Shown here in pieces: positions 34,580-54,631 of a stretch of 55,578 bases of DNA. Below the pieces are notes generated by a model. The model was given only the letters and a program-made list of their open reading frames with translations, was not told the origin of the DNA and searched no databases. A program made the position numbers and the translations under genes. Source of the DNA: a virus; IMG/VR virus record IMGVR_UViG_3300031951_000197, positions 1 to 55,578 of that record, one strand, 5' to 3'. Position 1 is the first letter of the stretch; every line of letters starts with the position of its first letter.

Positions 34580-36565
34580 TTACATCCAAGATGGTCGCCA
34601 CATTCGGGGTGGTGGTTTCACTCCTGTGAGCGACGGTGCGTGTAATTCTGCGAACCAATGTGCCATCACAAGGTCGGTTCCTCGTTTTTTGTCACGGGTC
34701 CAGGTTGTCATTTCGTCTAGGAACGCAAGAGTTTTCCAGTTGTCTCGCATTGTTGGTAGCCGTATTTGTCCTGTGCGCCATAGTGGGGGCAGTAATGCTT
34801 CTACTCCTAGGGTTTCGTCTATTTTGTTGCGGTGAGTGGTGTGTGGTACGACATTAACTCTGTGTAAGGCTTGCCATCTGCGAACAAAATCGTGGGCCAA
34901 CAGGAATCTTTGGGCTGCGTTTACTTCAATTATCCAATGTGTTATTGGATATCCCAGGTTTGCTGACCTGTGTTGCCAGTCATCCATGATTCCTGAGTAT
35001 TCACCTGTGCCAACAGAGTAGCCAAGTAGTTCTTCTGCTGTGAGTTTGCAGCGTTCGAGGTCTATTAGGTATCTGAGGTTTGTTTTGGGTTGGTATAGCC
35101 ACCATTGAACAGCCCAAAATTCGGATGGTGAAGGGTCTACAGAGGCAATAGAAATTATTGGTTGGTGTAGGTGGGGTGGTATGTAGCCTGGTTTTCTGTC
35201 GTTGTCGATGCAGCCTGGGTATTGTACGCCGTCTGAGCCTATTCCGCCTGTGGCCCAGGTTCGTTCGATGAGGTAGTTTCCTGCGTCGAGGTCTTCTTGT
35301 TGGTATACGACTTTGAATTTGTTGGGGTTGGAGTGTCGTATGAACGAAAGGTCTTTCCAGGATAGGCGGTGTGGGTCCAGTAGGGGTCCTTGCGGCCAGG
35401 GTTGGGAATCCCTTCGGCGCGATTTCGGGCCATCATCAAGTTCTTCATAATATGCTTTATAAACCAGGTGGTGATATTTTTTCTTTTTAACTGGTTCTTT
35501 AGTTTGTTGTAGTTTGTCGAGAAGTGTGACATCTTCTCCATCGTAGTCGTCGTCGAAGTCGTCGTATGTTTCTTTGGATAGGCAGTGGGCGTATAGGTCT
35601 GCTGGTCCTAGTCTTTGTCCTACTACTGCTAGTAGGCCGCCTGGGTCTACGCGGGCTTCTGCTACGGAGTCCCAGCGTTCTATGAGTTTGTCTCTGGCTG
35701 CGGATTCTTTGGCGTTTTCTGGGCCTGCCACATCGTCGAATAGGCATAGGTCGGCGCGGTGTCCGATGAATTCTGCTTCGATTCCGTATGCGGATACGGT
35801 TGGTTCTTTGTTGTCTAGACCGCCGACACCTAGTTGTTCGACAATGAATTCTTCTGCTCGCCATAGGCCGCCGCTGGCTGCTGGTTTGAATCTGCCGTAG
35901 TCGTGGGCGAGGCAGGCTTCAGCGTTTAGGGCTAACCCTTTCTTTACCAGTTCGGGGTCTGGTTCTAGTGGGAAGGGTCGTTCTAAGGTTTCGCGGATTC
36001 GGCGGGAGTATTGTTTGGCCATTGACGCAGAAATAGAACCAATCATGATTCGGATGGCACGGTTTCGTACTATGACCCATACTGCGACATCATGCCATAG
36101 GGTTGATTTGCCTGCACCTGGGGCAACATTGACGACACAGAATTCTTTTTCTGGGGATTCCAACCATTTAACAATCTGTAAGGCAGCGTCTACCTGCCAC
36201 GGTGACGGGACTCGACCCAAATATCTGCGACGGAAGTAGTCGAAATCTTCTAAACCGCGTTTTGCTTCGTCTGATAAATCACCGTATTGGCGTACTGCTG
36301 GTAAGTCTATTGCTTCGGTGATGGCTTGTTTATATGCGTCAGCGTCGCGGCCACCAGTTACTTTAGATTTGCGTACCCCTAGGTCGGCTGCTTTTATTTC
36401 TGCCCCTACTTGTTTGGCTTTAGCATCCCATTTTTGGCCTGTGTTGACATGGATGCCAACCATCGCTGAGGCTTCTTTGATGGTTAGGCCGCTGGAGCGT
36501 AAGGCAAAAAACTTGGCACGGATTTCTGCTGGCAGTTTACGTCTGCCCGAAAACTCATTGCCCAT
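34580..36565 (-). CDS. terL: terminase large subunit with N-terminal HTH
   Basis: A 661-residue terminase. Residues about 10-55 form an HTH (LPAEIRAKFFALRSSGLTIKEASAMVG), a small-subunit-like DNA-binding module fused to the large subunit; no separate small terminase was found. VVNVAPGAGKSTLWHDV is Walker A, DLCLFDDVAG Walker B, and ISIASVDPSPSEFWAVQ the start of the RNase H-like nuclease. It pumps and cuts DNA during packaging and is one of the first genes of the virion operon. Confidence 0.88.
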   Translation of the reverse strand: MGNEFSGRRKLPAEIRAKFFALRSSGLTIKEASAMVGIHVNTGQKWDAKAKQVGAEIKAADLGVRKSKVTGGRDADAYKQAITEAIDLPAVRQYGDLSDEAKRGLEDFDYFRRRYLGRVPSPWQVDAALQIVKWLESPEKEFCVVNVAPGAGKSTLWHDVAVWVIVRNRAIRIMIGSISASMAKQYSRRIRETLERPFPLEPDPELVKKGLALNAEACLAHDYGRFKPAASGGLWRAEEFIVEQLGVGGLDNKEPTVSAYGIEAEFIGHRADLCLFDDVAGPENAKESAARDKLIERWDSVAEARVDPGGLLAVVGQRLGPADLYAHCLSKETYDDFDDDYDGEDVTLLDKLQQTKEPVKKKKYHHLVYKAYYEELDDGPKSRRRDSQPWPQGPLLDPHRLSWKDLSFIRHSNPNKFKVVYQQEDLDAGNYLIERTWATGGIGSDGVQYPGCIDNDRKPGYIPPHLHQPIISIASVDPSPSEFWAVQWWLYQPKTNLRYLIDLERCKLTAEELLGYSVGTGEYSGIMDDWQHRSANLGYPITHWIIEVNAAQRFLLAHDFVRRWQALHRVNVVPHTTHRNKIDETLGVEALLPPLWRTGQIRLPTMRDNWKTLAFLDEMTTWTRDKKRGTDLVMAHWFAELHAPSLTGVKPPPRMWRPSWM

Positions 36566-37011: not shown

Positions 37012-37329
37012 CCCACCCTATTTACAATCTGACGAACCACACAAGTGGGGGAGCAAGTCCTAGACCCTGGATGAAACGATGAATACGCCAGGAACGGAAA
37101 CAGCGGCCAGAAATGGGGACCGACCTCTATTCATCAAAACTGCCACAAGTACCCCACCCAGACGGGGGGCGAAAATGATACAGACAGAGGTAACAAGAAT
37201 TTAAGAAATTCAGGTGTCGGCTAAAAACATTTGGTCACGGCCACCTACAGAACAAAACTGTAAAGCGTGGGGGGGAACCAAAAACCAGCACCACACCAAA
37301 CAACTACCGCGCCCCTACACGGGGCTTGC

Positions 37330-37485: not shown

Positions 37486-37610
37486 GCTGCGTTAGAACAA
37501 CCCCAACCCCAAACAAAACAATGAATATCTCAAAAACCTTATACAATATAGGGGGGCGGGGTGCCTCGGCATATGCCCCAGTTTATGCTATTGTATGTTT
37601 CTGTAATATG

Positions 37611-37704: not shown

Positions 37705-37722
37705 TGTTAGGTCTGCCTAACA
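37705..37722 (+). terminator. hairpin with T-rich tail, possible terminator or operator
   Basis: TGTTAGG-TCTG-CCTAACA is a 7-bp stem with a 4-base loop, followed on the plus strand by TCCTTTTGTTAC. The stem is A/T-poor enough to form but the T-run is short; it could equally be a protein-binding dyad. Confidence 0.35.
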
Positions 37723-37745
37723 TCCTTTTGTTACTTGTTGGTAAC

Positions 37746-37774
37746 TTGACATGGCTAGTTGTGTGTGGTAGTGC
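37746..37774 (+). promoter_or_regulatory. weak member of the early promoter family
   Basis: TTGACA, a 17-base spacer starting TGGCTAGTTG, then TAGTGC as a poor -10. The -35 and first part of the spacer resemble the three stronger early promoters. Confidence 0.35.
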
Positions 37775-37822
37775 GTACATATGTTCGTGTTTGTGGTGTG
37801 ACGAATGTCACATGGTTTACTA

Positions 37823-37851
37823 TTGACAAGGGTAGTTGGGGCTAGTAAAGT
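37823..37851 (+). promoter_or_regulatory. early promoter P1
   Basis: TTGACA (37823-37828), 17-base spacer AGGGTAGTTGGGGCTAG, TAAAGT (37846-37851): a near-consensus primary-sigma promoter reading into the plus-strand early block. Confidence 0.75.
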
Positions 37852-37915
37852 AGATTAGGTAAGGTTGAGTGAGTGAGAAGGGCTAGAAGAAATTCTAGGA
37901 ATCTTGCGAATTGAC

Positions 37916-37944
37916 TTGACAAGGGTAGTTAGGTTTAGTAAGGT
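37916..37944 (+). promoter_or_regulatory. early promoter P2
   Basis: TTGACA (37916-37921), 17-base spacer AGGGTAGTTAGGTTTAG, TAAGGT (37939-37944), 33 bases before the first early ATG. Shares most of its spacer with P1 and with the promoter at 39335. Confidence 0.75.
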
Positions 37945-37976
37945 CAAAGGGTAAGGGAAATACAAGAAAGGGAAAC

Positions 37977-38147
37977 ATGACTAGGAAAGATTACGAGAAA
38001 ATAGCCGCCGAAATTTGGTTAGTCCGTCTCATGGCTAATAGTGACCAAGTAACTTTAGATAGGGTGGCTAGTTGTTTGGCCGTAGTATTCAAGGAAGATA
38101 ATCCACGCTTCCAGATGGATAAATTTTTAGAGGCTTGTCGATTCTAA
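37977..38147 (+). CDS. small early protein, RKDYE family
   Basis: A 56-residue protein (MTRKDYEKIAAEIW..., DNPRFQMDKFLEACRF). This MTRKDY...A..F..DNPRF.... pattern is one I associate with short hypothetical proteins of actinophages. AAAGGG precedes the ATG. First gene behind promoters P1 and P2. Confidence 0.7.
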   Translation: MTRKDYEKIAAEIWLVRLMANSDQVTLDRVASCLAVVFKEDNPRFQMDKFLEACRF

Positions 38148-38156
38148 CAAGTCTCA

Positions 38157-38201
38157 CCCTTAGTCCGATATAGTCGGCGCAGGCTCATGACCTACTAAGG
38201 G
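38157..38201 (+). promoter_or_regulatory. structured RNA leader (three-way junction-like)
   Basis: CCCTTAGT (38157-38164) and ACTAAGGG (38194-38201) form a perfect 8-bp closing stem. Inside are CCGA-TATAG-TCGG (38165-38177) and the dyad around AGGCTCATGACCT. It lies between the first and second early genes, just before the 16-bp repeat, and may control translation or processing downstream. Confidence 0.5.
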
Positions 38202-38205
38202 ACTA

Positions 38206-38221
38206 TGTTCCACATGGAACA
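38206..38221. repeat. 16-bp palindromic repeat TGTTCCACATGGAACA, copy 1
   Basis: TGTTCCA-CA-TGGAACA, an inverted repeat with a 2-base centre, 18 bases upstream of the ATG at 38240. The identical 16 bases occur at 39381-39396, again just before a GAAGGGAAA ribosome site. Confidence 0.8.
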
Positions 38222-38239
38222 TTACAACGAAGGGAAACA

Positions 38240-38395
38240 ATGCTAGAACAATTAGAAGTAACTGTCATTCACGATGACTACCTTATTCTCTATAGGTACA
38301 TAGGTGACGCTAACACTAAATGGCGTAGCATATTCGTGCATGGTGAGGATGAGGCTAAGGAATTTATCGCCACAATTAACGAGATAGGGAAATAG
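38240..38395 (+). CDS. small early protein
   Basis: A 51-residue acidic protein (MLEQLEVTVIHDDYLILYRY...). GAAGGGAAA lies upstream. Unknown function. Confidence 0.65.
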   Translation: MLEQLEVTVIHDDYLILYRYIGDANTKWRSIFVHGEDEAKEFIATINEIGK

Positions 38396-38409
38396 AAGGG
38401 AAACAACTA

Positions 38410-38604
38410 ATGGAAACATACATAAGCGCACATATGCGCCTAATAGAAGATACTGACGGCAACATAATCGACGCAGACTATTTCTGTAGCGATTCATGCC
38501 ACCAAAATTATTGCCTAATTTATAAAATACCTTATGAAGGATGGAACGGTTGCCACGAGGTTATGGCACCACAAGTATGCGAAAATTGTAAGAAGGAAAT
38601 TTAG
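38410..38604 (+). CDS. small zinc-binding early protein
   Basis: A 64-residue protein with FCSDSCHQNYC in the middle and VCENCKKEI at the end, a four-Cys pattern typical of small treble-clef/zinc-ribbon proteins. GAAGGGAAA precedes the ATG. Likely binds nucleic acid or a host protein. Confidence 0.7.
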   Translation: METYISAHMRLIEDTDGNIIDADYFCSDSCHQNYCLIYKIPYEGWNGCHEVMAPQVCENCKKEI

Positions 38605-38616
38605 AAGGGAAAAATA

Positions 38617-38931
38617 ATGACATACACACAACAACAATTAGAAGAACTAGAGAACTATTGCGACGAGGAGAGGATTCTCTATGACGCATTTAGGGCATAC
38701 CTAGACAACATCCATGACCCAGAAGACTGGGCAGAACATAAAGGAAACTTTGAGGATGATTATGTAGGTGAATATTCTGATGGTGCAGAATTCGCTTATC
38801 AGATAGTGGATGACCTATACAACATTAACGAAGACTTGCGACACTATTTTGACTATGACGCTTATTGGAGAGACTTACTTTATGGTGGCGATTATTGGAT
38901 TAGCGATGACGGCCATATTTTTAGAGGATAA
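38617..38931 (+). CDS. ArdA-like antirestriction protein (short)
   Basis: A 104-residue, very acidic protein. The second half, NFEDDYVGEYSDGAEFAYQI followed by VDDLYNINEDLRHYFDYDAY, WRDLLYGGDYW and DGHIFRG, matches the C-terminal domain of ArdA proteins, which mimic DNA and block type I restriction enzymes. Full ArdA has about 165 residues, so this is a C-terminal-domain-only form. In phage R it sits in the early block, where antirestriction would act. No homologue was seen in the phage L arm. Confidence 0.72.
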   Translation: MTYTQQQLEELENYCDEERILYDAFRAYLDNIHDPEDWAEHKGNFEDDYVGEYSDGAEFAYQIVDDLYNINEDLRHYFDYDAYWRDLLYGGDYWISDDGHIFRG

Positions 38932-38949
38932 CTAGAAAGGGAAATAGAA

Positions 38950-39132
38950 ATGGAAACAATATTTAAGGATAAGGAATTCATAATCGTAGTGAAACGAGGC
39001 TTGGAATTTGAGACTTCCGAATTAGACCACGCATTAAAAATTTTTGGTGAATGGTTTTCCAAAGGGTACACAGATACCGTGATTAAGGTTAGGAATACAA
39101 AATTACATTGGGATTATTTAGAAGGGAAATAG
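38950..39132 (+). CDS. small early protein
   Basis: A 60-residue mixed-charge protein (METIFKDKEFIIVVKRGLEF...). Preceded by AAAGGGAAA. No domain recognised. Confidence 0.6.
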   Translation: METIFKDKEFIIVVKRGLEFETSELDHALKIFGEWFSKGYTDTVIKVRNTKLHWDYLEGK

Positions 39133-39134
39133 AA

Positions 39135-39329
39135 ATGGCATACGGATACTTAAATGACATAATGAAACTGGCACCAAAATATGCACAAGGCTTGGTACTG
39201 ACTTTACAACTACGCCACGCCGAACAATTTAATTCTAAGAGTGATTACCATTTAGGATATCGGCAAGCGTTATCGGATGTCTATGACTTGGCACAAGAAG
39301 AATCTAGAACGGGAAAGGACATTAACTAA
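39135..39329 (+). CDS. small early protein
   Basis: A 64-residue helical protein (MAYGYLNDIMKLAPKYAQGL...). The ATG at 39135 follows GAAGGGAAATAGAA, the usual early ribosome site, 2 bases after the previous stop. It ends 5 bases before promoter P3. Unknown function. Confidence 0.65.
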   Translation: MAYGYLNDIMKLAPKYAQGLVLTLQLRHAEQFNSKSDYHLGYRQALSDVYDLAQEESRTGKDIN

Positions 39330-39334
39330 TAAAC

Positions 39335-39363
39335 TTGACAAGGCTAGTTAGGTAGTGTAAAGT
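39335..39363 (+). promoter_or_regulatory. early promoter P3
   Basis: TTGACA (39335-39340), 17-base spacer AGGCTAGTTAGGTAGTG, TAAAGT (39358-39363). Almost the same as P1/P2 including the GTAGTTAGG-like spacer; it would fire the second half of the early block. Confidence 0.75.
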
Positions 39364-39380
39364 AGTTATCAGTAAGGGAA

Positions 39381-39396
39381 TGTTCCACATGGAACA
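39381..39396. repeat. 16-bp palindromic repeat TGTTCCACATGGAACA, copy 2
   Basis: Identical to 38206-38221. It starts 18 bases after the P3 -10, so it overlaps or immediately follows the expected transcription start, and lies 20 bases before the next ATG. Confidence 0.8.
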
Positions 39397-39415
39397 ATTA
39401 CGAAGGGAAATAGAA

Positions 39416-39613
39416 ATGGATAAGAAGGTTAAGTGTTCATGTTGTGGCACGATGGTAGATAGTTTGGCTATCTTCCCAAACGATATGTGTTTATCGTGCT
39501 ATGCGATGGAACAAGACGCAAGGGAAAAGGCTATCGGTACTGTCCGATACATGGAAGAATTAAGACTAACAATACTAGGGACATTTGGTAGTCCCGTGAA
39601 GGGAAGGAAATAA
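39416..39613 (+). CDS. small zinc-finger early protein
   Basis: A 65-residue protein with VKCSCCG and MCLSCYAME: two Cys pairs of a short zinc finger. I use the ATG at 39416 with GAAGGGAAATAGAA in front; an in-frame ATG at 39380 lies inside the 16-bp repeat and is unlikely. Confidence 0.7.
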   Translation: MDKKVKCSCCGTMVDSLAIFPNDMCLSCYAMEQDAREKAIGTVRYMEELRLTILGTFGSPVKGRK

Positions 39614-39891
39614 TGGCAACGATGAAGGAAATTTATTTAGAGGCTTGGCATAGAGGCTATGACGGAGGCTTGGCAGATAAGGATAAAGGCTATGTCAATG
39701 ACAGTCCTTTATCTGGGGAATGGGCAGGGGAATCTATTCCCGAATTGTTAGGTGACCTAATCACGCAAGCGATGAACACAGGAATTAGTGTGCTAATGGA
39801 TATCGACGAAGACCACATTATTCAGGAATTGTGTGACGAATATGAGGATGGATATTTTGAGGCTAACGATATTGAAAGGGTATACGAATGA
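39613..39891 (+). CDS. acidic early protein
   Basis: A 92-residue acidic, helical protein (MATMKEIYLEAWHRGYDGGL..., DIDEDHIIQELCDEYEDGYF). Starts within the previous stop. No domain recognised. Confidence 0.65.
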   Translation: MATMKEIYLEAWHRGYDGGLADKDKGYVNDSPLSGEWAGESIPELLGDLITQAMNTGISVLMDIDEDHIIQELCDEYEDGYFEANDIERVYE

Positions 39892-40073
39892 GTAAGTACA
39901 CAGTGAAAACAACAGAAACTATCTACCATACATATGAGTTTGAGGCCAATTCTGAGGATGAGGTTTGGGATATGTTGCAAAACTTGTCCGATGAACAACT
40001 ACAAAACGATGACCTATATGGTGAACAATTTTTCGAGGTTACAGAAATTACAAAGGAAGGGAATGAAGGATGA
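39888..40073 (+). CDS. small early protein, KYT paralogue 1
   Basis: A 61-residue acidic protein (MSKYTVKTTETIYHTYEFEA...). KYTV...E...HTYEFEA.SEDE is repeated in the protein at 40282-40470. Overlaps both neighbours by 4 bases. Likely a small binding domain; role unknown. Confidence 0.65.
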   Translation: MSKYTVKTTETIYHTYEFEANSEDEVWDMLQNLSDEQLQNDDLYGEQFFEVTEITKEGNEG

Positions 40074-40285
40074 AGGCTAGTGAATTAGCAAATACGGTAG
40101 GGAAGGTAGGCGTACTGAGAGTATCGGGAACAGCACTACTATTTGATGTGAAGGTATGTGACGCACGGTATAGGTACGGCCATCTAGATTATTTGGTGTC
40201 ACCTATCGCTGGTGGTGGTGAGACTTGGCACCAAAGTGACCAAATTACTTTTCACGATACAACTACAGAAGGGATAGAAGGATGA
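40070..40285 (+). CDS. small early beta-rich protein
   Basis: A 71-residue protein with alternating hydrophobic strands (GKVGVLRVSGTALLFDVKV, YRYGHLDYLVSPIAGGG) suggesting a small beta-barrel. Overlaps both neighbours. Confidence 0.65.
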   Translation: MKASELANTVGKVGVLRVSGTALLFDVKVCDARYRYGHLDYLVSPIAGGGETWHQSDQITFHDTTTEGIEG

Positions 40286-40470
40286 ATAAATATACGATAG
40301 TTGTAGAAGAAATTATCTTTCACACTTACAAGGTAGAGGCAGTGTCAGAAGATGAGGCTATGCACAAGATAGGTGAATCCCAATGTGGCAACGATGAGTT
40401 TCTAATCGGTAGTCAGGGTACATGGAATACATATTATGAAGTAGAGAATGTAGAAGGGAATGAAGGATGA
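40282..40470 (+). CDS. small early protein, KYT paralogue 2
   Basis: A 62-residue acidic protein (MNKYTIVVEEIIFHTYKVEA...), similar to 39888-40073. The two flank one unrelated gene, pointing to duplication. Overlaps neighbours by 4 bases. Confidence 0.65.
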   Translation: MNKYTIVVEEIIFHTYKVEAVSEDEAMHKIGESQCGNDEFLIGSQGTWNTYYEVENVEGNEG

Positions 40471-40772
40471 TTACTGAGGCTAAAACTATTTGGGAATTCT
40501 TGGAAGAAGAACATCCCAAGGCTAAGGGAACTAATGCGTTGTTTCAATGGTCATTGAATTATGACTACGACATACGACCTTTTAATTTGTTTCTTGACTT
40601 AATCGGATGGTCGGCAGAACATTATGGTTCACCTATCTTTGATATGACTACGGTACATATGACGGTAGGTTACATGGAAGCCGATTATCTGGGTGACGCA
40701 TTGAAGGAATGGGCAGATGACCCACATAGCGTTGAGTCTTGGATTGAAACTCTTATGGGATTAGAGGACTAG
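40467..40772 (+). CDS. early protein of unknown function
   Basis: A 101-residue acidic helical protein (MITEAKTIWEFLEEEHPKAK..., WADDPHSVESWIETLMGLE). No domain recognised. Confidence 0.65.
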   Translation: MITEAKTIWEFLEEEHPKAKGTNALFQWSLNYDYDIRPFNLFLDLIGWSAEHYGSPIFDMTTVHMTVGYMEADYLGDALKEWADDPHSVESWIETLMGLED

Positions 40773-40774
40773 AC

Positions 40775-40966
40775 ATGAAATATATGAATGTGAGTAAGAC
40801 TGTTACCTATGACATCGAACAAGTACGGGAATCCATGAAAGATTTGGGTATGGATTGTGACAGCGATGAGGATTTGATTGCGATGATAGAAGGATTTGTG
40901 GTTGATGATTTTCGTGGTGACAGTAAAGATTTGTATTGGGTAGATGATGAAGGGAACGAATGGTGA
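40775..40966 (+). CDS. small acidic early protein
   Basis: A 63-residue acidic protein (MKYMNVSKTVTYDIEQVRES...). The opening VSKTVTYDIEQV weakly recalls the two KYT paralogues. Overlaps the next gene. Confidence 0.6.
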   Translation: MKYMNVSKTVTYDIEQVRESMKDLGMDCDSDEDLIAMIEGFVVDDFRGDSKDLYWVDDEGNEW

Positions 40967-41178
40967 AGATTAGAAAGTATCGTGTGGTGGACTATCGCAA
41001 ATGGGATAGGGCTAAATGCACAGTGTTGGTAGTGTTGGTGGTGGTCACCTATATGATGATGTTGTACGACAACGGTACACATGACAAGATTGGTGTGTCA
41101 TCGTGGGCATTGGTTCCGCTTGTTCCAGCAGGTTTGTTGGCGTGGAATCTTTTTATTAAAGAAGGGAAAAAGAAATGA
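40960..41178 (+). CDS. two-span membrane protein
   Basis: A 72-residue protein with a basic N-terminus (MVKIRKYRVVDYRKW), two hydrophobic helices (TVLVVLVVVTYMMMLY and VSSWALVPLVPAGLLAWNLF) and KEGKKK at the end. Probably in the host cytoplasmic membrane; could act in superinfection exclusion. Not shown. Confidence 0.65.
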   Translation: MVKIRKYRVVDYRKWDRAKCTVLVVLVVVTYMMMLYDNGTHDKIGVSSWALVPLVPAGLLAWNLFIKEGKKK

Positions 41179-41366
41179 TAGATATTAACTACAACAAATT
41201 ACAGGAAGCCTTGTGGCAAGCAGAAAGAGCATTGGGTGACTGGGTTATGTGTGGCTATTGTGACGATAGCGCATTGTCCATACTGCGTACATTGAAGTTA
41301 GACTTGGAATACGCACACAAAGCGTGGTCTAATTTGGACACTGTTACGATTATTGTGGAACGGTAG
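41175..41366 (+). CDS. small early protein
   Basis: A 63-residue helical protein (MIDINYNKLQEALWQAERAL...), start overlapping the previous stop, GAAGGGAAA upstream. Unknown function. Confidence 0.6.
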   Translation: MIDINYNKLQEALWQAERALGDWVMCGYCDDSALSILRTLKLDLEYAHKAWSNLDTVTIIVER

Positions 41367-41379
41367 AAGGGAAACGGAC

Positions 41380-41493
41380 ATGAACGACAGTCACACTTGG
41401 GCAGAATACGAAGGGGATGTGGTCTGCATAGTATGTGATAGCAGGCCATGGGGAAAGTCTGCGAAGGAACCATGTGAATCGGAGACTGAGTAA
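41380..41493 (+). CDS. 37-residue Cys-containing early protein
   Basis: MNDSHTWAEYEGDVVCIVCD with a third Cys near the end; CxxC is the only recognisable feature. GAAGGGAAA lies 8 bases before the ATG. Confidence 0.5.
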   Translation: MNDSHTWAEYEGDVVCIVCDSRPWGKSAKEPCESETE

Positions 41494-41776: not shown

Positions 41777-41983
41777 ATGGTTGTCCTCTACTTGTTGGCG
41801 TGTAATGTCATCCTCGTACAGTCTGATGATATGGATACATGGGTCATTACCGTTCAACCATTGTTCTTCTTCCGCTGGCGTTTCTGGCATACCGTCATGC
41901 GTGTAACACACAGCAGGGCCACACCATCCACTATCCATCCCGTACTGTAGCCAGTCAAGGTAATTCATCTTCTTGCGTTTCAT
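41741..41983 (-). CDS. conserved phage protein with THDG motif
   Basis: An 80-residue homologue of 4027-4278: CGPAVCYTHDGMPETPAEEE, DPCIHIIRLYEDD and NHSPSVWRK. Start overlaps the stop of the second WhiB gene. It is the last gene of the long minus-strand operon of phage R. Confidence 0.75.
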   Translation of the reverse strand: MKRKKMNYLDWLQYGMDSGWCGPAVCYTHDGMPETPAEEEQWLNGNDPCIHIIRLYEDDITRQQVEDNHSPSVWRKPYTK

Positions 41984-42381
41984 TTTGTTCCTTTCTTGTA
42001 AGACTTAATGCGTTGATAGTTCGCTGACACACAAGGCTGGCAACGGCAACCTCGTGTCCACATCGAGCGTGTACCATGCACAGCAGTACCGAACGACTGG
42101 GTGGAGTAGCGACGGTACTTGCGTTCCGCTGGTGTTTCCCCTGCCCACATACCGAACGGTAGGACATCTGGTTGTGCTTCTTGTTCGTCACAGTAGGCAC
42201 GGCATTGTTGCACCACGGGACATGACGCACATATCGCACGGGCTGGTCGCCATGCGGCGACACTGTTCCCTTGAATCTCAGGGAAGAATACTGTTGTTGG
42301 TACCCCTAGGCAGGCTCTTGCCCGTCTCCAGTCGAATTTTACGGCGTTCAAGTTGGCGTTCACGAGGAGACATACCCCCAA
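41980..42381 (-). CDS. WhiB-family regulator with extra Cys-rich C-terminus
   Basis: A 133-residue protein: ACLGVPTTVFF, ICASCPVVQQC, and FGMWAGETPAERKYRR form the WhiB core; a further segment GTRSMWTRGCRCQPCVSANY adds three Cys in a motif often seen as a separate small DNA-binding module in actinophage proteins. The start at 42381 overlaps the first WhiB gene by 104 bases; a GTG at 42363 is an alternative. The fusion may give its own DNA specificity. Confidence 0.78.
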   Translation of the reverse strand: MGVCLLVNANLNAVKFDWRRARACLGVPTTVFFPEIQGNSVAAWRPARAICASCPVVQQCRAYCDEQEAQPDVLPFGMWAGETPAERKYRRYSTQSFGTAVHGTRSMWTRGCRCQPCVSANYQRIKSYKKGTK

Positions 42382-42610
42382 ATAATCCGTGTGCTATATA
42401 GTTTTCGATTGCGTATTGTCGGCAGTCCAACAGTACGGGGCAGGTGTCGCATAGTTTTCTCCCTTCACGGTATGCGTCTTTGGTGTCTGCGTCTGAGAAA
42501 AAGTAGTAGGTTGGTGCATCTATGCAGGCTGCGTGTTTAGTCCACGGGCCTGCTTTTTTGTACAGTATCGGTAGTTGATACGGGTCCTCAGAAGGGTTCG
42601 TCTGTTCCAT
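42278..42610 (-). CDS. whiB: WhiB-family iron-sulfur regulator
   Basis: A 110-residue WhiB: HAACIDAP, LCDTCPVLLDC and HGLFGGMSPRERQLERRKI. I use the ATG at 42610 (MEQTNPSED), with AAGGGA upstream; the longer frame would lie wholly within ssb. It overlaps ssb by 23 bases. Two WhiB genes in tandem distinguish phage R from phage L, which has one. Confidence 0.85.
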   Translation of the reverse strand: MEQTNPSEDPYQLPILYKKAGPWTKHAACIDAPTYYFFSDADTKDAYREGRKLCDTCPVLLDCRQYAIENYIAHGLFGGMSPRERQLERRKIRLETGKSLPRGTNNSILP

Positions 42611-42971
42611 ATTGCACCGTTCCCTTGGCTGGTTGGGTGCCTCGTTCGCTGACGGCGACATCATATTTAACTGACACACCTACTTCGTTGGCGATGATTT
42701 GCACACGATAGTTTTTCTTGCCATCTTTTTCGTAACTGGTTTTTTCCAGTCTGCCGATGACAATAACTCTGGTTCCTTTGGGGCATGACGCTGCGATGTT
42801 TTCTGCTTCGGCTCCGAACGCTACACAGTCATGCCATGTTGTTTCTTTTTCTTTGTCTGCGCCTTTAAGCATGGTGGTGCCGACTGAGAATGACAGTACG
42901 GCTTTGCCTGCTTGGCTGAATCGAAGTTCGGGTTCTTGTCCGATGTTACCTACGATGTGAATGTTGTTCAT
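42588..42971 (-). CDS. ssb: single-stranded DNA-binding protein
   Basis: A 127-residue SSB: NNIHIVGNIGQEPELRF, WHDCVAFGAEAENIA and the acidic end TDEPF. The ATG at 42971 overlaps the stop of the Zn-ribbon gene (ATGA). Homologue of 4895-5293 but in a different gene order: here it lies after the Rpf-like and Zn-ribbon genes. Confidence 0.9.
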   Translation of the reverse strand: MNNIHIVGNIGQEPELRFSQAGKAVLSFSVGTTMLKGADKEKETTWHDCVAFGAEAENIAASCPKGTRVIVIGRLEKTSYEKDGKKNYRVQIIANEVGVSVKYDVAVSERGTQPAKGTVQYGTDEPF

Positions 42972-43099
42972 TGTTCCTTCTTGGTTAGTGGCAGGTGCCT
43001 GTTTGCTTTTTTCTTGCAGGAGTGCGACGGCGGTTCTAAGGGTGTTATGTAAAGAGTGATGTTTTGTCCACATGATTTACATTCCCATTCTGTTTTCAC
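42968..43099 (-). CDS. small zinc-ribbon protein, GTG start
   Basis: A 43-residue homologue of 3564-3704: WECKSCGQNITLYITP, EPPSHSCKKKAN. Start is GTG at 43099, 6 bases after the Rpf-like stop; the stop overlaps the ssb start. CxxC plus His/Cys suggests zinc binding. Confidence 0.68.
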   Translation of the reverse strand: MKTEWECKSCGQNITLYITPLEPPSHSCKKKANRHLPLTKKEQ

Positions 43100-43104
43100 C
43101 GTTG

Positions 43105-43668
43105 TCACCCCCAATAGATTTCGTAAGTTGGTTCTCCAGCATACTTCAGGCAGTTGTTGTTTGACAAGCCTTTTGGTGGTATGAATTTGCCTGCCTGGGT
43201 TGTGTACCCGTATATGGTTTTGCGTAAGTAGATAACTTTTTGTTGGTCGTAGGTTGTTTCGTTAGCCCAGAATGTGCCTGTGAGTTCGCGGCCACCGTAG
43301 TACTCGAAGGTTCCCGACCCGTTGGCCGTTGTCCAGAATCCAAACGCTCCACGGAATGTGGCATTGGGTCCGTATGCTTCGCTTGCGTTGCCGATGTGGG
43401 CGGGGTCTTGGCTCGTTTCGCATTGTGCTATCGCTTCCATGAATTTGTGGGTGAAGATTTGTTTCCCTAAGAATTCTTTGTACGGGTTGTTGATGAGGTC
43501 CCATATGTGAATGAGTTGTGCGCCAACTCTGTAGGTTTCAGCCAGGTTTTCAACTTGTGGGTTGGGTGCTGGACTGGTGGGTGCTGTTGCTATGTGGGCT
43601 TCAGCAGTTAGGTTGCTTGCCGCAAACAGGGCGACGGTTAGCAAGATGGTCTTCCGTAAACGAGTCAT
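43105..43668 (-). CDS. secreted Rpf/transglycosylase-like protein
   Basis: A 187-residue homologue of 4275-4832 with signal peptide (MTRLRKTILLTVALFAASNL), MEAIAQCETSQDPAHIGN (candidate catalytic Glu), FRGAFGFWTT, YYGGRELTGTFWANE and SNNNCLKYAG. Unrelated to the endolysin. Its persistence in the regulation/recombination module of both phages, with conserved Cys pair (CETS..., NNNC), suggests a needed role, perhaps wall remodelling during infection or waking dormant hosts; the latter is speculation. Confidence 0.65.
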   Translation of the reverse strand: MTRLRKTILLTVALFAASNLTAEAHIATAPTSPAPNPQVENLAETYRVGAQLIHIWDLINNPYKEFLGKQIFTHKFMEAIAQCETSQDPAHIGNASEAYGPNATFRGAFGFWTTANGSGTFEYYGGRELTGTFWANETTYDQQKVIYLRKTIYGYTTQAGKFIPPKGLSNNNCLKYAGEPTYEIYWG

Positions 43669-43688
43669 TGAGACTCCTTTCGTGAATG

Positions 43689-43895
43689 TTAGATATCGAA
43701 GCGGAACTTAGATTTTTCTAGTTCTAGTGCGGCGGTTAGTAAGCCGATGGTTGATGTTGCTCGCTGGTTTTCCAGGCCAGTAAAGATGAGGTGGTCTTCA
43801 CCTCTGTCGTCTACATAGTTTACTACAAGGGTGTAGCCGACTATGACTCCAGGGATTTCTTCGGAGATTGCGTCGAGGATGAAGTCGTTATCCAT
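43689..43895 (-). CDS. small acidic hypothetical protein
   Basis: A 68-residue protein (MDNDFILDAISEEIPGVIVG..., VVNYVDDRGEDHLIFTG), beta-rich at first and helical at the end. The D..GEDHL motif resembles short proteins seen in actinophages. Unknown function. Confidence 0.6.
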   Translation of the reverse strand: MDNDFILDAISEEIPGVIVGYTLVVNYVDDRGEDHLIFTGLENQRATSTIGLLTAALELEKSKFRFDI

Positions 43896-43912
43896 TCATG
43901 TACCCTAGCAGG

Positions 43913-44056
43913 TCAGTCCCTGTACTGCCATTCGGCGAGGTCTGCTCCGTCTGGGCCGTTGTCGCAGACACATTCTTCTTCTTCACATTCTTCGCAGGGT
44001 TCGTCACCGTTTCCTTCTACTATGTTGAGTAGCCAGGTGTCGTAGTCGGTTCCCAT
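43913..44056 (-). CDS. 47-residue Cys/Glu-rich protein
   Basis: MGTDYDTWLLNIVEGNGDEP then CEECEEEECVC and a short end. CxxC and CxC in an acidic context suggest metal binding. Start at 44056, AAGGGA 6 bases upstream. No phage L copy seen. Confidence 0.55.
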   Translation of the reverse strand: MGTDYDTWLLNIVEGNGDEPCEECEEEECVCDNGPDGADLAEWQYRD

Positions 44057-44080
44057 TGTTAGTCCCTTCTATTAGTGGTG

Positions 44081-44242
44081 TTAATCTTTTTTACTAAGTA
44101 ACGCTGATAGTGCTTCTTCTGCGTCGATTACTTTCTGTTGTATCCACGGGTCTGCTGATGCGACATGGCGAATGACATCACGGATGTTCACAAGTGTTTG
44201 TCTTGGTACAGCAACGGTGCGTGGTGGCCGTTTGGTTGTCAT
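44081..44242 (-). CDS. 53-residue hypothetical protein
   Basis: A small protein with a basic N-terminus (MTTKRPPRTVAVPRQTLV) and helical rest. It overlaps the nuclease stop (ATGA) and takes the same position as the RHH-like gene of phage L but is not similar to it. Confidence 0.55.
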   Translation of the reverse strand: MTTKRPPRTVAVPRQTLVNIRDVIRHVASADPWIQQKVIDAEEALSALLSKKD

Positions 44243-44574
44243 GTTCGGTCCTTCTTAATTTCGTTCAACAATATTTCGAGTGGCATGACAGCATACCATT
44301 CTGCTGGGTTGGTTGTGCCTTTCTTTTTGGCGACAACAAATCCAAAGTCTGCGTTTGCGTTTACCATTTCTTGTTGTAGTTCTTTGACCCATTCTGCGAG
44401 TGTAAGTTTGGCGTGGTTCTTCACCTCGATAACTACACCTGGGATTCCTGTGATGTCACCTTTGTCGTTGATGCCGTGAAGCGCACGGCGTTCAGCGTGG
44501 ATGAATCCGTTGTCTTGCAGGTAGCGCACGACTGCTGTTTCTGCTGCTGTGCCTTTGGCTCGTTGTTTGCTCAT
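44239..44574 (-). CDS. PD-(D/E)xK nuclease, Holliday-junction resolvase-like
   Basis: A 111-residue homologue of 5290-5652: KGTAAETAVVRYL, AERRALHGINDKGDITG, VVIEVKNHAKLTLAEW, giving E...GD...ExK. The ATG overlaps the stop of a small membrane peptide. Likely trims or resolves branched DNA. Confidence 0.8.
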   Translation of the reverse strand: MSKQRAKGTAAETAVVRYLQDNGFIHAERRALHGINDKGDITGIPGVVIEVKNHAKLTLAEWVKELQQEMVNANADFGFVVAKKKGTTNPAEWYAVMPLEILLNEIKKDRT

Positions 44575-44666
44575 CGCTTTGGACCATTACGAAAATGTTC
44601 TGATACTACTGTTGCAGTAAAGATGATGAGGGCAAGGCCATGAAACACAATCAGTATGTCAACCAT
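44571..44666 (-). CDS. 31-residue membrane peptide
   Basis: MVDILIVFHGLALIIFTATV and a short polar tail. Overlaps the annealing protein gene at its start and the nuclease ATG at its stop. A single membrane helix; real only if the tight coupling is meaningful. Confidence 0.45.
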   Translation of the reverse strand: MVDILIVFHGLALIIFTATVVSEHFRNGPKR

Positions 44667-45483
44667 CGGTGGTTTTCTTTTCGATGTCACGCTTCAAGGT
44701 GTCAATCATAACCAATGCTTCTTCTGTGGTCAATTCCACAATGTCACGCAGGTCACGGCCCGTGGTGAAGGCCGCTACCGACAGCAGGCCATCGTGGTCT
44801 AATCCAAGTTTGCCTTGTGCAAGTGACAGTTCTCGTATCTGTGCTTTGCTGATACCACCTGGACTTACTGGTGTTGGTTCGGCTGGTGCGGCGACAGCAT
44901 CTTTGAACAGTGTGCGTAGTTTGTTGAAGTCTGCTTCGGTTAGTTCGTTTGAGGGCTTACCGATTTGTGTGAGCAAAGTATCTGGGTCAATGTTCTTGTC
45001 GGTGCAGGCTTTAACAAATTTGTCGTAGTCAGATTTTGCTACAAGTTTTGGTGGTTCAGGTTTGGTGAGGTCTTCCCATTCTTGTTTGGTCCACAGTGAC
45101 AGACAGATACCGAATCGCATAGCGGCGTTACGCAGGAAGTCTGATACAAGTTCTTTGTCGAGGTCTGGTTTGTGTGCTTCACATGAACCGACAGCAACAC
45201 GGGTGGTGCCGTGAATGGTGAGGCGACCCCACATGGTTGCCATTTCAACTTCCATGTTGGAACCGCCACGCTTCACTGTTCCTTTATGAATGTGAATAGC
45301 GGGTCTGCCTTCAATCCAGTCGCATGGTTCCCATGTCCACATCGGGTCCACTTCGATAAGGATTCGGGTGATGTCAGCATGACCAACAAAGTCGAGACTT
45401 GCTCCACCTTTTTCTAGTTTGCCGACAATCTTTTTATCTGGTACTGCCCAATCGTTGAGGGCTTTCAATAACGGATGTTCCAT
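44659..45483 (-). CDS. putative single-strand annealing protein, not RecT
   Basis: A 274-residue protein just after YqaJ, where phage L has recT. FVGHADITRILIEVDPMWTW, MWGRLTIHGTTRVAVGSCEA and SDFLRNAAMRFGICLSLWTK resemble the Rad52/Sak-type annealing proteins of actinophages; no RecT motif is present. The C-terminal 110 residues are helical and polar. The exonuclease/annealing pairing supports the role; the family call is by eye. Confidence 0.6.
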   Translation of the reverse strand: MEHPLLKALNDWAVPDKKIVGKLEKGGASLDFVGHADITRILIEVDPMWTWEPCDWIEGRPAIHIHKGTVKRGGSNMEVEMATMWGRLTIHGTTRVAVGSCEAHKPDLDKELVSDFLRNAAMRFGICLSLWTKQEWEDLTKPEPPKLVAKSDYDKFVKACTDKNIDPDTLLTQIGKPSNELTEADFNKLRTLFKDAVAAPAEPTPVSPGGISKAQIRELSLAQGKLGLDHDGLLSVAAFTTGRDLRDIVELTTEEALVMIDTLKRDIEKKTTDG

Positions 45484-45484
45484 T

Positions 45485-46423
45485 TCACTTTCCCTTTCTT
45501 GTTATGCGAAGCACACGGAATGTGCTGTTCTTTTCAAACCTTTTTACCAAATCGGGGTGGGCTAAAGCAAGTCCCTTTGTGTCCACGCTAGTGCGGGTTT
45601 GTTGTTTCCAGGTGACAATAGTATCACCGTTCAAGGTACCTACTGTTGCGCCACCTAAGTGTTCTGCGATGAGTGCTTTCACTTTGTCTTCTTCCTGTTC
45701 CCAATGTGTCTTGTGGGTTTTTGCTTTGTCCAGTAGGTCTAATAGTTCAACGATGTTTTCGTTGAGTTCAACTGTTTCGTTGTGGGCTTCAGGATAAATC
45801 TTTCCCATGTGGTCGTATCCGAATTGCACACCTTCGGGTAGTTGGCCACGGTTGATAGCGATAAGGAATTCTTTCGCTGCTTCAATGTGGTTGCGTTTCG
45901 TTTCCCAGTCCACATATTGAATGTGATGATGCAAGGTTTGTGTCTTGTCGAACACCCACCAATGCACCTGAGTTTCGTCGGCGCACAGTGCCTGTTGTAC
46001 ACCTTGGTAGTACCAGTGTGGTGGCAGAGTTCCTGTCCATTCGTTTGTGGTGGTTTTGAATTCGTGGATGGATAGGTCTTCGCTTCGGCCATCGAGGGTT
46101 GCGATAAGGTGCGCCGCTTCTTGGTCATAGCAGTACAGTAGTCCTGGTACTTGGATACGCATACCGTACATATCGCTAGCCCATTGACGGATGGGTTCTT
46201 CCAGGCGGTTGCCTCGTTCCATCGCTTGTGTTGGTGCTTGTGGTGTTGGCGGTTTCGGTGCTAACAGTTCTGCTGTTAGGTCGGAGATGCTTTTGTATGG
46301 GTGTAAACCGTAGATGGCTGCACACTCTGATGCCGCTAACCGTTTCTCACCTGTTTCTGTTTCCCATCGGACCGCTAACCATTCGGCAGAACCGTGGGGT
46401 GGTTTGTGAATTACGCTGTTCAT
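45485..46423 (-). CDS. YqaJ-type 5'-3' exonuclease
   Basis: A 312-residue homologue of 6873-7817: HGSAEWLAVRWE, RGNRLEEPIRQWA, LIATLDGRS, IHEFKTTTNEW and HWYYQGVQQALC. In this copy the usual ExK motif reads EFKT. It would make single-stranded ends for the annealing protein encoded 2 bases downstream. Confidence 0.88.
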   Translation of the reverse strand: MNSVIHKPPHGSAEWLAVRWETETGEKRLAASECAAIYGLHPYKSISDLTAELLAPKPPTPQAPTQAMERGNRLEEPIRQWASDMYGMRIQVPGLLYCYDQEAAHLIATLDGRSEDLSIHEFKTTTNEWTGTLPPHWYYQGVQQALCADETQVHWWVFDKTQTLHHHIQYVDWETKRNHIEAAKEFLIAINRGQLPEGVQFGYDHMGKIYPEAHNETVELNENIVELLDLLDKAKTHKTHWEQEEDKVKALIAEHLGGATVGTLNGDTIVTWKQQTRTSVDTKGLALAHPDLVKRFEKNSTFRVLRITRKGK

Positions 46424-46449
46424 GTTCCCTTCTTTCTACCCTGTAGGTG

Positions 46450-46743
46450 TTACAGAGTTTTGTGGTTGAATTCTTTTGTTGATGCCAACCTTGTTACCGA
46501 CTTTATCATTACTGAAGGTATGTGGCAAACATTTGACACCATCTCTGGTGGCCATTCGTCATCGTGGATGTATCCCGATACGAGGGTGATGTGTTCTGGT
46601 AGGACATTCGGCCAGATGAATCCGACATTCAATGCCATTGTTGGTTCAGGTTGGTAGTCATCTACTGGGGTCCAGCCTGTGTCACCGTCGAACGCATCCA
46701 CCCATGAGACTGCAACAAGTTCCCATTCGTTATCTGTCGTCAT
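46450..46743 (-). CDS. conserved phage protein (DAFDGDTGW family)
   Basis: A 97-residue homologue of 7858-8172: EWELVAVSWVDAFDGDTGW, TLVSGYIHDD, SNVCHIPSVMIK. Start at 46743 (MTTDNEW) with AAGGAT upstream. Function unknown. Confidence 0.7.
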   Translation of the reverse strand: MTTDNEWELVAVSWVDAFDGDTGWTPVDDYQPEPTMALNVGFIWPNVLPEHITLVSGYIHDDEWPPEMVSNVCHIPSVMIKSVTRLASTKEFNHKTL

Positions 46744-46864
46744 AGGTTTTATCCTTGGTTGGTTCGGTGTCTCGTTCGCCGCGGGTCCCGCAGATAAGAC
46801 ATCGTTGTGCTTCCCGTTCGGGCCAGGTTGTGTCACATATTGGGCAGATTAGCCATGCTTCCAT
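46730..46864 (-). CDS. small rubredoxin-like zinc-ribbon protein
   Basis: A 44-residue homologue of 8144-8281: MEAWLICPICDTTWP, RCLICG. It overlaps the phosphoesterase end by 32 bases and the next gene by 14, the same layout as in phage L. Confidence 0.72.
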   Translation of the reverse strand: MEAWLICPICDTTWPEREAQRCLICGTRGERDTEPTKDKTYDDR

Positions 46865-48005
46865 ACTGTTTCCCACGATACATCATTTGGCCGTCACGGA
46901 TGGGGACAAGTTCCAGATGGAACGGAGAATCCCCTTCTTGGTAGGTGACCACAGCCAGCCCTTGTTGCCAGTTTTCGGTCACTGTGAGTGGTCTTCCGTC
47001 TAGGTCTATGCCACCTTTGGTTGAGGGGACAGCCCCATCTACACGGGCGAGGCATCCTGCTGAGGCTGCGAGGATGGTTTTGGGTCCATCCCAATCTTCA
47101 CGGGTTTGTTCTGCCCATTCTCTACGGTGGACATGGCCGTATAGTACGGATGTTTTCTCATGTTGTAGGTATTGGTGGGCGGTGGAGCCGTTGGATTTGG
47201 CTTTGCTTCCGTGGATACAGCGCAGTTTCTGGTTCACCCATACTTGTCCTGCTGGGTATCCTGGGACATATTCGATGTTGTGTTCATCGAAACGGCATAG
47301 GAATGGGACAGATAGAACAGGCCAGGATTCTGGTGCGTTGCCTCGTTTCAAACCGAAAGCGGCTGATGCGTTGTCTATCAGGTAGTTGACCAGTCGTTCT
47401 TCGTGGTTGCCTGCCAGCCAGTAGATTTTGGCTTCGGGTGAAGCGGCTCGAAGTTGGGCGCTCATGGTTGTGGCATAGTCAATGGCTGCTTGGGTGGTTC
47501 GTTGGAACGCTGGGGACAGCCTGTATTTACCCATTTCGGGTAGGTCTAGGTTGTCTCCGTGCATGACTATAAGGCTGGGTTTAACCTGTTTGATGAGGGC
47601 TATTGCCAGGTCTATCGCCACGGGGTCGTGAGTGGCCTCTAGGTTGCCGTCTGCTTGACGATAGTAGCCAATCTGCATATCGGGCAGGATGACCGCAGTG
47701 AGCCAATCCTGAGGCTTCTGAGAGGTTGCTTTAACTGGGGGCAGTTTGATGGCTGGACCCTGCTGGATGACTGGCCATTCAGGTCCTGTCTCCCAGGCTG
47801 GGGAAAACTGGACACCCATCAGGTCGTGGATTTCTGCTTCGCCTTCCTCATTTTTGGTGAGAGACTGGTATACAGATACCCGTTTGATTTGCCCGACCTC
47901 GTTGATGTCGATGCCTTGCCTGTCGAACAGGTCAACCAGTTTGCCTAACTTCTCCAGTTTGGCTGCCTTATCGGTAGCGGGTGGTGGGGTGATGTCTAGC
48001 GGCAT
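46833..48005 (-). CDS. calcineurin-like metallophosphoesterase
   Basis: A 390-residue homologue of 8247-9419 with VILPDMQIGYY, MHGDNLDLPEMGKY, LAGNHEERLV and VLYGHVHRREWAE. The ATG at 48005 (MPLDITPPP) has AAAGG upstream; the frame extends further but without a better start, and this choice gives equal length with phage L. Confidence 0.85.
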   Translation of the reverse strand: MPLDITPPPATDKAAKLEKLGKLVDLFDRQGIDINEVGQIKRVSVYQSLTKNEEGEAEIHDLMGVQFSPAWETGPEWPVIQQGPAIKLPPVKATSQKPQDWLTAVILPDMQIGYYRQADGNLEATHDPVAIDLAIALIKQVKPSLIVMHGDNLDLPEMGKYRLSPAFQRTTQAAIDYATTMSAQLRAASPEAKIYWLAGNHEERLVNYLIDNASAAFGLKRGNAPESWPVLSVPFLCRFDEHNIEYVPGYPAGQVWVNQKLRCIHGSKAKSNGSTAHQYLQHEKTSVLYGHVHRREWAEQTREDWDGPKTILAASAGCLARVDGAVPSTKGGIDLDGRPLTVTENWQQGLAVVTYQEGDSPFHLELVPIRDGQMMYRGKQYGSMANLPNM

Positions 48006-48238
48006 ACGCACTGACCTTTCAGGTGGCGACGCAAAACATTCTCTGCGACTTGGAAACCTTCTTTTGCTAACACTGCCCGTACCCAAGTGTATGTGTAACC
48101 TGCTTCCTGACCGATACGAGGGGCGATGCTGTTGAACGCTTCCAGGTCTTCGTCAGTCATGGCGGTAAGCATTTTGCCTACTACACACCGTTTAATTACA
48201 CTTGGCTGGTTTGAGGCTATCTGGTCTTTTAATGACAT
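47996..48238 (-). CDS. small HTH-like protein
   Basis: An 80-residue homologue of 9406-9654 (YTWVRAVLAKEGF, LRRHLKGQCVC). Overlaps the phosphoesterase start by 10 bases. Probable DNA-binding protein. Confidence 0.62.
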   Translation of the reverse strand: MSLKDQIASNQPSVIKRCVVGKMLTAMTDEDLEAFNSIAPRIGQEAGYTYTWVRAVLAKEGFQVAENVLRRHLKGQCVCR

Positions 48239-48298
48239 TGTTACTCCCTTCTGTAGCCGTAGTTACATTGTTGTAGTTCTTCGGCAAGAAGTCAAGTA

Positions 48299-48508
48299 TT
48301 AGTGGTCTTCGGCTTTGTGCTTTAGAAAATCTTCCTTCAAGGAGTCTAACTTCTCATCGTGTCTATCCAACTTGGTATCCATACGGCTAATGGTGTGCAT
48401 CATCAAGTCGTTGGATTCGCCTGATTCGCGGCGGTGCCGTTGCAGTAAGGCCACCATGACAGCACCGACCAGGCCGATGAGGGCCACGGCGATGCCTTCG
48501 GGTATCAT
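48299..48508 (-). CDS. membrane protein, DUF2746-like
   Basis: A 69-residue homologue of 9821-10000: one membrane helix (GIAVALIGLVGAVMVALL), QRHRRES and a longer coiled-coil tail. Start overlaps the micro-protein stop (ATGA). Confidence 0.72.
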   Translation of the reverse strand: MIPEGIAVALIGLVGAVMVALLQRHRRESGESNDLMMHTISRMDTKLDRHDEKLDSLKEDFLKHKAEDH

Positions 48509-48585
48509 TCGTCATCCTCTGGCAAAGCCAAACAGAGACACAGGAATGAGCAGACTGCCACCAATGAAATCATTATCGGCACCAT
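48505..48585 (-). CDS. 26-residue membrane micro-protein
   Basis: MVPIMISLVAVCSFLCLCLA then LPEDDE. Counterpart of 10000-10080, same length, place and acidic end. Confidence 0.58.
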   Translation of the reverse strand: MVPIMISLVAVCSFLCLCLALPEDDE

Positions 48586-49190
48586 CAGTTGATGCCTAAC
48601 ATTTTTGTGAATTTAGCCCACTCACGCTTAACAAGTTTGGTTGGGTTATTTGCGTCGGCCAACTGCCAATGCCATGCCTCATATTCGGGATTTGGTTTCC
48701 ACAAATATTTAGGTGGGCCTTGCAGGAAGATGCCATACTTGGGTGCGTTACGACACAACCAATCGTAGACAGGTCCTGTGATTAGAAAATCTTGGGCGCA
48801 GGCCCAGCCATGAGGACTTGTGCCAGGGCTTGCTGAGGGGCTGGCACCTTTGTTGAGGAAGTAGGTGCGCCCGTTGTATTGGCGTGTTATTTGTGGAACT
48901 CGACCTGTTGGTGTGAGCGAGTAACGGGAATAGAACAGGGCTTCTTGTCCTTCGAAGGAACGGTAACCACCTGACACTGCTTTCAGTTCGATACCGTCAC
49001 GCTTGGCGTGGTCGTACATCAGGTTGCAGGCGAACACGAAACCGCCGTACCATTCGATATCGAACCAGCCTGTGCCACCGCACGATAGTTTGGCTAGTTT
49101 GTTGGCGGGTAGTTTGCCGTTGCCGTATTGTTCTAAACGCTGTGGTACTACTAGCCGTTTGTACGGGTGGCCTGGTGCGACGATGCCCAC
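48585..49190 (-). CDS. endolysin, M15 (VanY-type) peptidase
   Basis: A 201-residue homologue of 10080-10670: SGGYRSFEGQEALF, SPHGWACAQDF and YEAWHWQLA. Start is GTG at 49190, two bases after the holin-like gene. Confidence 0.88.
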   Translation of the reverse strand: MGIVAPGHPYKRLVVPQRLEQYGNGKLPANKLAKLSCGGTGWFDIEWYGGFVFACNLMYDHAKRDGIELKAVSGGYRSFEGQEALFYSRYSLTPTGRVPQITRQYNGRTYFLNKGASPSASPGTSPHGWACAQDFLITGPVYDWLCRNAPKYGIFLQGPPKYLWKPNPEYEAWHWQLADANNPTKLVKREWAKFTKMLGIN

Positions 49191-49191
49191 A

Positions 49192-49410
49192 TCAGCCGCC
49201 TTCCACCGCTTTGGCTACTTCTTCTGTGGTGAGTCGGCCATCCATCGCAGAGTTGGCGAGGTTGTTTGCGACTGCGATTAGGTACATGACGAGGGTTGTT
49301 CCTGCTGTGACCCAGGTGGAGACATCGAAGATGAACGCTGTGGAGATTACGCCTAGTGCTACTGTCGTAAGATTGGCTGCGAACTTAACGGCGATTGCTT
49401 GAGATGACAT
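49192..49410 (-). CDS. holin-like membrane protein
   Basis: A 72-residue homologue of 10672-10890 with two hydrophobic segments (AVKFAANLTTVALGVIST and WVTAGTTLVMYLIAVANN). Confidence 0.75.
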   Translation of the reverse strand: MSSQAIAVKFAANLTTVALGVISTAFIFDVSTWVTAGTTLVMYLIAVANNLANSAMDGRLTTEEVAKAVEGG

Positions 49411-50780: not shown

Positions 50781-50791
50781 CTTTCCTACTC

Positions 50792-52651: not shown

Positions 52652-52654
52652 TAG

Positions 52655-54619: not shown

Positions 54620-54631
54620 GGCACATTAGTG

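Follow-up and report, generated by a model that had tools for sequence, protein, structure and literature searches.

Early region and its promoter copies

The window, meaning the whole stretch of 55,578 nucleotides that was analyzed, is a single IMG/VR virus record. Positions 1 to 17276 and 43000 to 55578 are collinear copies of one module with ~69% DNA identity, and the last 127 bases (55452 to 55578) are identical to positions 17150 to 17276; 127 is a common assembler k-mer. The record looks like a lasso-shaped chimeric contig composed of a circular genome of ~38.3 kb (17277 to 55578) and 17 kb of a related phage, with the promoter cluster located in the circular part. DNA searches against isolated phages gave no match, and the best terminase matches were ~25% identical.

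A rightward block of small open reading frames (ORFs; 37977 to 41493) has promoters at its head and inside, and is flanked by a leftward terminase gene (34580 to 36565) and by leftward WhiB, SSB, and recombination genes. Two WhiB proteins are encoded near this early region (41980 to 42381 and 42278 to 42679), and their membership in the WhiB family was confirmed. The first early ORF, e1 (37977 to 38147, + strand; 56 amino acids, MTRKDYEKIA...), is served by the putative promoters P1 and P2. L063 and L080 carry homologues of e1 close to the start of the early region, and homologues were also present in 20 further loci. The early ORF e4 (38617 to 38931) matches anti-restriction protein families (phrog_2059, E value of 3.7e-11) and recovered no relatives when used as a query. 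There was no Rfam match in the promoter region and no tRNA in the window. More than 20 terminase relatives share, as conserved DNA sequence, a noncoding block (GTGTCGGCTAAAA...GTAAAGCGTGGGGG, 37212 to 37274 in the window) that lies ~0.65 kb upstream of the terminase gene. The sequence ...TATACAATATAGGGGGGCGGGGTGCCTCGGCA... at 37539 to 37581 recurs between leftward and rightward genes in L063, L080, L122, and L137, and is possibly a leftward promoter or a terminator.

The pattern TTGACA-N(16-18)-TARRGT matched the window three times, at 37823, 37916, and 39335 on the + strand and always with a 17-bp spacing, compared with 0.04 ± 0.20 matches expected from 100 dinucleotide shuffles of the window. 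The extended form TTGACAAGGSTAGTTRGG was perfect at the same three positions and recurred with two mismatches at 37746 (0.09 expected). All three sites carry SigA/sigma-70-type hexamers (TTGACA and TANNNT, 16 to 18 bp apart), and two of them were the best-scoring sites of the region in a promoter consensus scan. P1 (37823 to 37851, + strand; TTGACA-agggtagttggggctag-TAAAGT) and P2 (37916 to 37944, + strand; TTGACA-agggtagttaggtttag-TAAGGT) have predicted starts near 37858 and 37951, respectively, and the internal promoter P3 (39335 to 39363, + strand; TTGACA-aggctagttaggtagtg-TAAAGT) has a predicted start near 39370. The fourth copy, P0 (37746 to 37774, + strand; TTGACA-tggctagttgtgtgtgg-TAGTGC), retains the 15-bp core TTGACANGGSTAGTT and is the weaker one because TAGTGC occupies its -10 place.

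These results bear out the initial annotation, which had described early promoters of the form TTGACA-17-TA(A/G)(A/G)GT at three sites with nearly the same spacer, and a weaker copy at 37746. Aligned at the 17-bp spacing, the three good copies share spacer positions 1 to 12 (AGGSTAGTTRGG) and differ at positions 13 to 16, and their likeness runs slightly beyond the -10 element, with GTAAGG(G) starting 7 to 9 nt 3' of it. In all, there are four copies, each of which drives or precedes the rightward block, the early operon of this actinophage, and a role as early promoters is supported. The best reading of the repeated sites is that they are tandem SigA-type promoters of this operon and that P0 is a decayed relic.

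Crp-type box and other palindromes near the early promoters

A perfect Crp/GlxR-type box, TGTGACGAATGTCACA (37797 to 37812), lies upstream of P1. It is the sole exact TGTGA-N6-TCACA in the 55.6-kb record and had been overlooked in the initial annotation. Exactly 10 bp (d = 10) separate the box from the -35 hexamer, and its center falls at -53.5 from the predicted P1 start, which is placed 7 nt 3' of the -10 element. At the place expected for such a box, P1 matched at 10 of 10 positions, P2 at 0 of 10, P3 at 2 of 10, and P0 at 3 of 10, so that P2 and P3 are without a Crp box.

Relatives were sampled by terminase (80 relatives), by promoter pattern (at least 120 stretches), and by the early protein e12 (61 loci). 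Three phages among the 80 terminase relatives (L063, L070, and L080; 1.3 Mb searched) carry TGTGA-N6-TCACA, in each case at d = 10 before a 17-bp-spaced promoter of the early region. Viral contigs were also scanned with the composite pattern TGTGAC-N5-TCACA-N10-TTG-N20-TANNNT, which was present in at least 120 viral stretches at d = 10, compared with 23 at the control distance d = 15 (complete scan); 77 composite sites were distinct at 25% divergence among the matches listed. The e12-selected loci (569 kb) contained 40 Crp palindromes, whereas eight control palindromes of the same composition occurred 0 to 3 times. When promoters rather than boxes were sought in these loci, 12 of 22 distinct TTGACA-17-TANNNT sites were preceded at d = 10 by a box that matched at 9 or more of its 10 positions; no box was present at any other spacing from 1 to 40, and one was present at 0. 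Palindromes that had not been used for selection favored distances of 10, 21, 31, 41, and 51 bp from the -35 hexamer, which corresponds to the helical repeat (45 pairs in pattern-fetched loci; Rayleigh P of ~2e-5, an optimistic value because some pairs are homologous promoters). The box thus keeps a constant distance from the -35 hexamer that follows it, in phase with the helix.

In relatives, the first early gene is often preceded by two promoters separated by ~93 to 118 bp, with further promoters downstream, and usually every one of them has a box. In many composites an ORF start (ATG) follows the -10 element by 6 to 7 nt. This is the pattern of leaderless actinobacterial mRNAs, which supports the predicted start geometry. 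A set of contigs that we call group A phages (L092, L107, L138, L146, and L193) has 5 to 8 TGTGA-N6-TCACA palindromes within ~15 kb, many of them preceding apparently leaderless genes (TATAAT-6 nt-ATGGACCTAAA), and these could represent a phage regulon of host Crp. The exact composite was rare in bacterial chromosomes (18 stretches in the 257 Gb scanned, two of them in named Actinomycetes), and hosts therefore seldom use exactly this design. One of these two examples (L303) precedes an apparent chromosomal gene of the cell wall type.

Several other palindromes occur around the promoters. The operator-like GTTAGGTCTGCCTAAC (37706 to 37721) is a perfect GTTAGG-N4-CCTAAC upstream of the promoters, and in composite-bearing loci TTAGG-N4-CCTAA is located mostly 75 to 100 bp upstream of the -35 hexamer; its enrichment, apparent at first, disappeared against control palindromes in unbiased sets. 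The palindrome GTTACTTGTTGGTAAC (37730 to 37745) abuts the -35-like sequence of P0, and GTTAC-N6-GTAAC had 12 matches in the terminase relatives, compared with 0 to 4 for controls. A parS-like palindrome, ATGTTCCACATGGAACAT (38205 to 38222), is present in an intergenic leader and differs by one mismatch from TGTTCCACGTGGAACA, which is similarly placed in L100, L122, L170, and L226; a second one, ATGTTCCACATGGAACA (39380 to 39396), lies in the leader of P3. Exact parS (TGTTTCACGTGAAACA) occurs in L137, which has parS-like sites near 4180 and 2620 (- strand), and five times in the 569 kb of e12 loci. In relatives, ATGTTCCACGTGGAACAT or exact parS is found in early leaders just 3' of promoters. 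Such palindromes may be host ParB sites or leader hairpins. LexA-type boxes (CGAAC-N4-GTTCG) were strongly enriched in each of two unbiased sets (30 versus 0 to 5 for controls) and many Crp-type promoters have one in the 300 bp that precede them (L063, L091, L129, L137, L166, L169, and others); in L091, Crp and LexA boxes alternate. The window itself contains no box of this LexA type.

Spacers of the early promoters in relatives

The spacer AGGSTAGTTRGG is private to the phage in the window, as judged from the contigs searched. A relaxed spacer motif had no match elsewhere in 2.9 million viral contigs, and the extended motif of the initial annotation had a single match there, in an unrelated 143-kb contig (L085). 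The nearest terminase relative (L005, 90%) stops just short of the promoter cluster, and the comparison at this place thus covers more distant relatives. In phages with 2 to 5 early promoters (L137, L235, L237, L238, and L248), each promoter has its own spacer, and the spacers are mutually unlike within L137 (four promoters), L235 (four), and L248 (five). Orthologous promoters of close phages have similar spacers, as descent predicts. Among distinct composite sites of the TTGACA type, mid-spacer positions 6 to 11 carry at most ~0.1 bit each, and the weak preferences detected in composite sites were for AGG at the start of the spacer and TGN just before the -10 element. Group B phages (e.g., L111 and L157), with TTGACAAGGGTAACTAAG..., were considered as support for a conserved spacer and rejected. 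The overlap is mainly the AGGG after TTGACA, and it was discounted because this is a mild preference in all of these promoters.

Conservation of the spacer among relatives, as expected for a family of spacer-recognizing regulators, was thus not observed. The initial annotation had proposed that the spacer is the element recognized by a phage or host regulator, and had named variable spacers in relatives, the situation found here, as grounds for abandoning that idea. Its more general suggestion of a regulator survives in altered form: a host regulator is probably involved, and the conserved site is the Crp-type box upstream of the -35 hexamer rather than the spacer.

Proposed regulation of the early promoters and comparison with known systems

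Both GlxR (PMC7999487) and CRP (PMC4117774) have TGTGA-N6-TCACA as their consensus site. The CRP sites of Mycobacterium tuberculosis are concentrated between -60 and -40, and a crp mutant lost expression of genes whose sites lie at -44.5, -54.5, -57.5, and -59.5 (PMC4117774). WhiB, an actinobacterial marker, was encoded in 30 of the 44 composite contigs searched, and a cNMP-binding domain was detected in none of the 44 (control genomes were positive), and the regulator is therefore most likely that of the host. Host Crp is the likely regulator of P1.

We consider it probable that the cluster consists of tandem SigA-type early promoters, of which P1 is activated by host Crp, whereas P2 and P3 are box-less copies that arose by local copying. 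From the arrangement of these elements, we infer that host cAMP receptor protein would bind the P1 box on one face of the helix, beside RNA polymerase, and that from -53.5 it would activate rather than repress transcription from P1, thereby coupling the early genes to host cAMP. P2 and P3, lacking the box, would be Crp independent. The common spacers, the box-less P2 and P3, and the decayed P0 are most simply explained if this phage has copied its core promoter locally. The -35 hexamer of P1 is the consensus, and Crp-activated promoters usually have poor -35 hexamers; Crp might thus only boost this promoter or even repress it. In Escherichia coli, a site near -52 is reported to be a poor activating position.

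The palindrome could instead be bound by another regulator, either of the phage or a non-Crp protein of the host (TGTGAC-N4-GTCACA), or Crp could act as a repressor. The composite was indeed searched with TGTGAC, the -35 hexamer is already near consensus, and a function is known for few early ORFs. However, the palindrome consensus is identical to that of GlxR/CRP sites, unselected boxes often read TGTGAT or TGTGAG and still keep the helical register, and the box lies upstream of the -35 hexamer, whereas mycobacterial CRP represses when its site overlaps the start. We regard this alternative as rather unlikely. That the palindrome works in RNA, as a hairpin or as a terminator of read-through from P0, is extremely improbable: although it appeared terminator-like in a consensus scan, its T-run is poor, and variants such as AGTGAC...GTCACA and TATGAC...GTCACA break the outer pairs while keeping the exact distance to the -35 hexamer.

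Two further explanations concern the repeated spacer. If TTGACAAGGSTAGTTRGG were an asymmetric phage repressor operator covering the -35 hexamer and spacer, as in L5 and Bxb1, P0 would be an operator without a promoter. This would fit both the constancy of spacer positions 1 to 12 next to the variable positions 13 to 16 and the retention of the 15-bp core in P0, which has no -10 element. Such an operator is nevertheless unlikely, as there are just four copies, every one in the early region, the motif is missing from relatives, integrase, resolvase, and HTH_3 domains (PF00589, PF00239, and PF01381) are absent from the record, and no protein of these kinds was recognized among the ORFs scanned. 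The initial annotation had instead invoked WhiB proteins that recognize the spacer together with SigA. Two WhiB genes do adjoin the early region, and WhiB is common among composite-bearing contigs, but spacers vary in WhiB-carrying relatives as well and the motif is confined to a single phage. Furthermore, characterized WhiB7 contacts AT-rich DNA upstream of the -35 hexamer and not the spacer. The proposal found no specific support in the window, where the translations of the two WhiB proteins (of three) that adjoin the region have no RGRP-type AT-hook and nothing in the promoters indicates their involvement, and we consider it highly improbable.

Conservation of a Crp-type site next to the promoter suggests a coupling of early expression in these phages to host cAMP signaling. 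If this is true, the cAMP receptor protein of the host controls the first genes of a large group of actinophages, and infection would be responsive to the carbon and energy state of the host. More broadly, uncultivated actinophages may keep sites for host Crp (cAMP), LexA (DNA damage), and perhaps ParB at fixed positions beside early promoters, with the -53.5 Crp design being specific to phages and unlike host promoters; this generalization is tentative, and we are more doubtful than confident of it. One box at one distance is simple enough for reporter tests in a laboratory actinobacterium, and the composite could be used as a marker of early promoters in metagenomic phages. No account of an early-promoter design based on a Crp box was found in the part of the literature that was covered.

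The closest known counterparts are the class I promoters of actinobacterial Crp/GlxR proteins (Corynebacterium glutamicum GlxR and M. tuberculosis CRP), which have in common with the phage promoters the box, its position in the -60 to -40 range from which activation is known, and a 17-bp-spaced SigA-type promoter. In contrast to these, the phage box is fixed at -53.5, the -35 hexamer is near consensus, and the promoters belong to the early regions of phages, a single phage often having several. In cluster A phages (L5 and Bxb1), the stoperators and the Pleft operator likewise involve a repeated, asymmetric, TTGACA-containing sequence and the early region. However, stoperators form some 20 to 30 sites scattered over the genome, whereas the four copies found here are confined to the early region, include three full promoters, have another sequence, and are accompanied by no recognized repressor or integrase. 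WhiB7-SigA promoters resemble the present ones in their SigA-type elements, actinobacterial setting, and nearby WhiB genes, but here neither a conserved AT-rich element nor an adjoining WhiB with an AT-hook was found, and the spacer is not the known contact. Finally, phages whose early or lysogeny promoters respond to host regulators, such as LexA-controlled phages and coliphages with CRP effects, also have sites for host factors beside their promoters, and LexA boxes are enriched in the relatives studied here. What sets the present promoters apart from these is the invariant 10-bp spacing of the Crp box across many divergent actinophage contigs.
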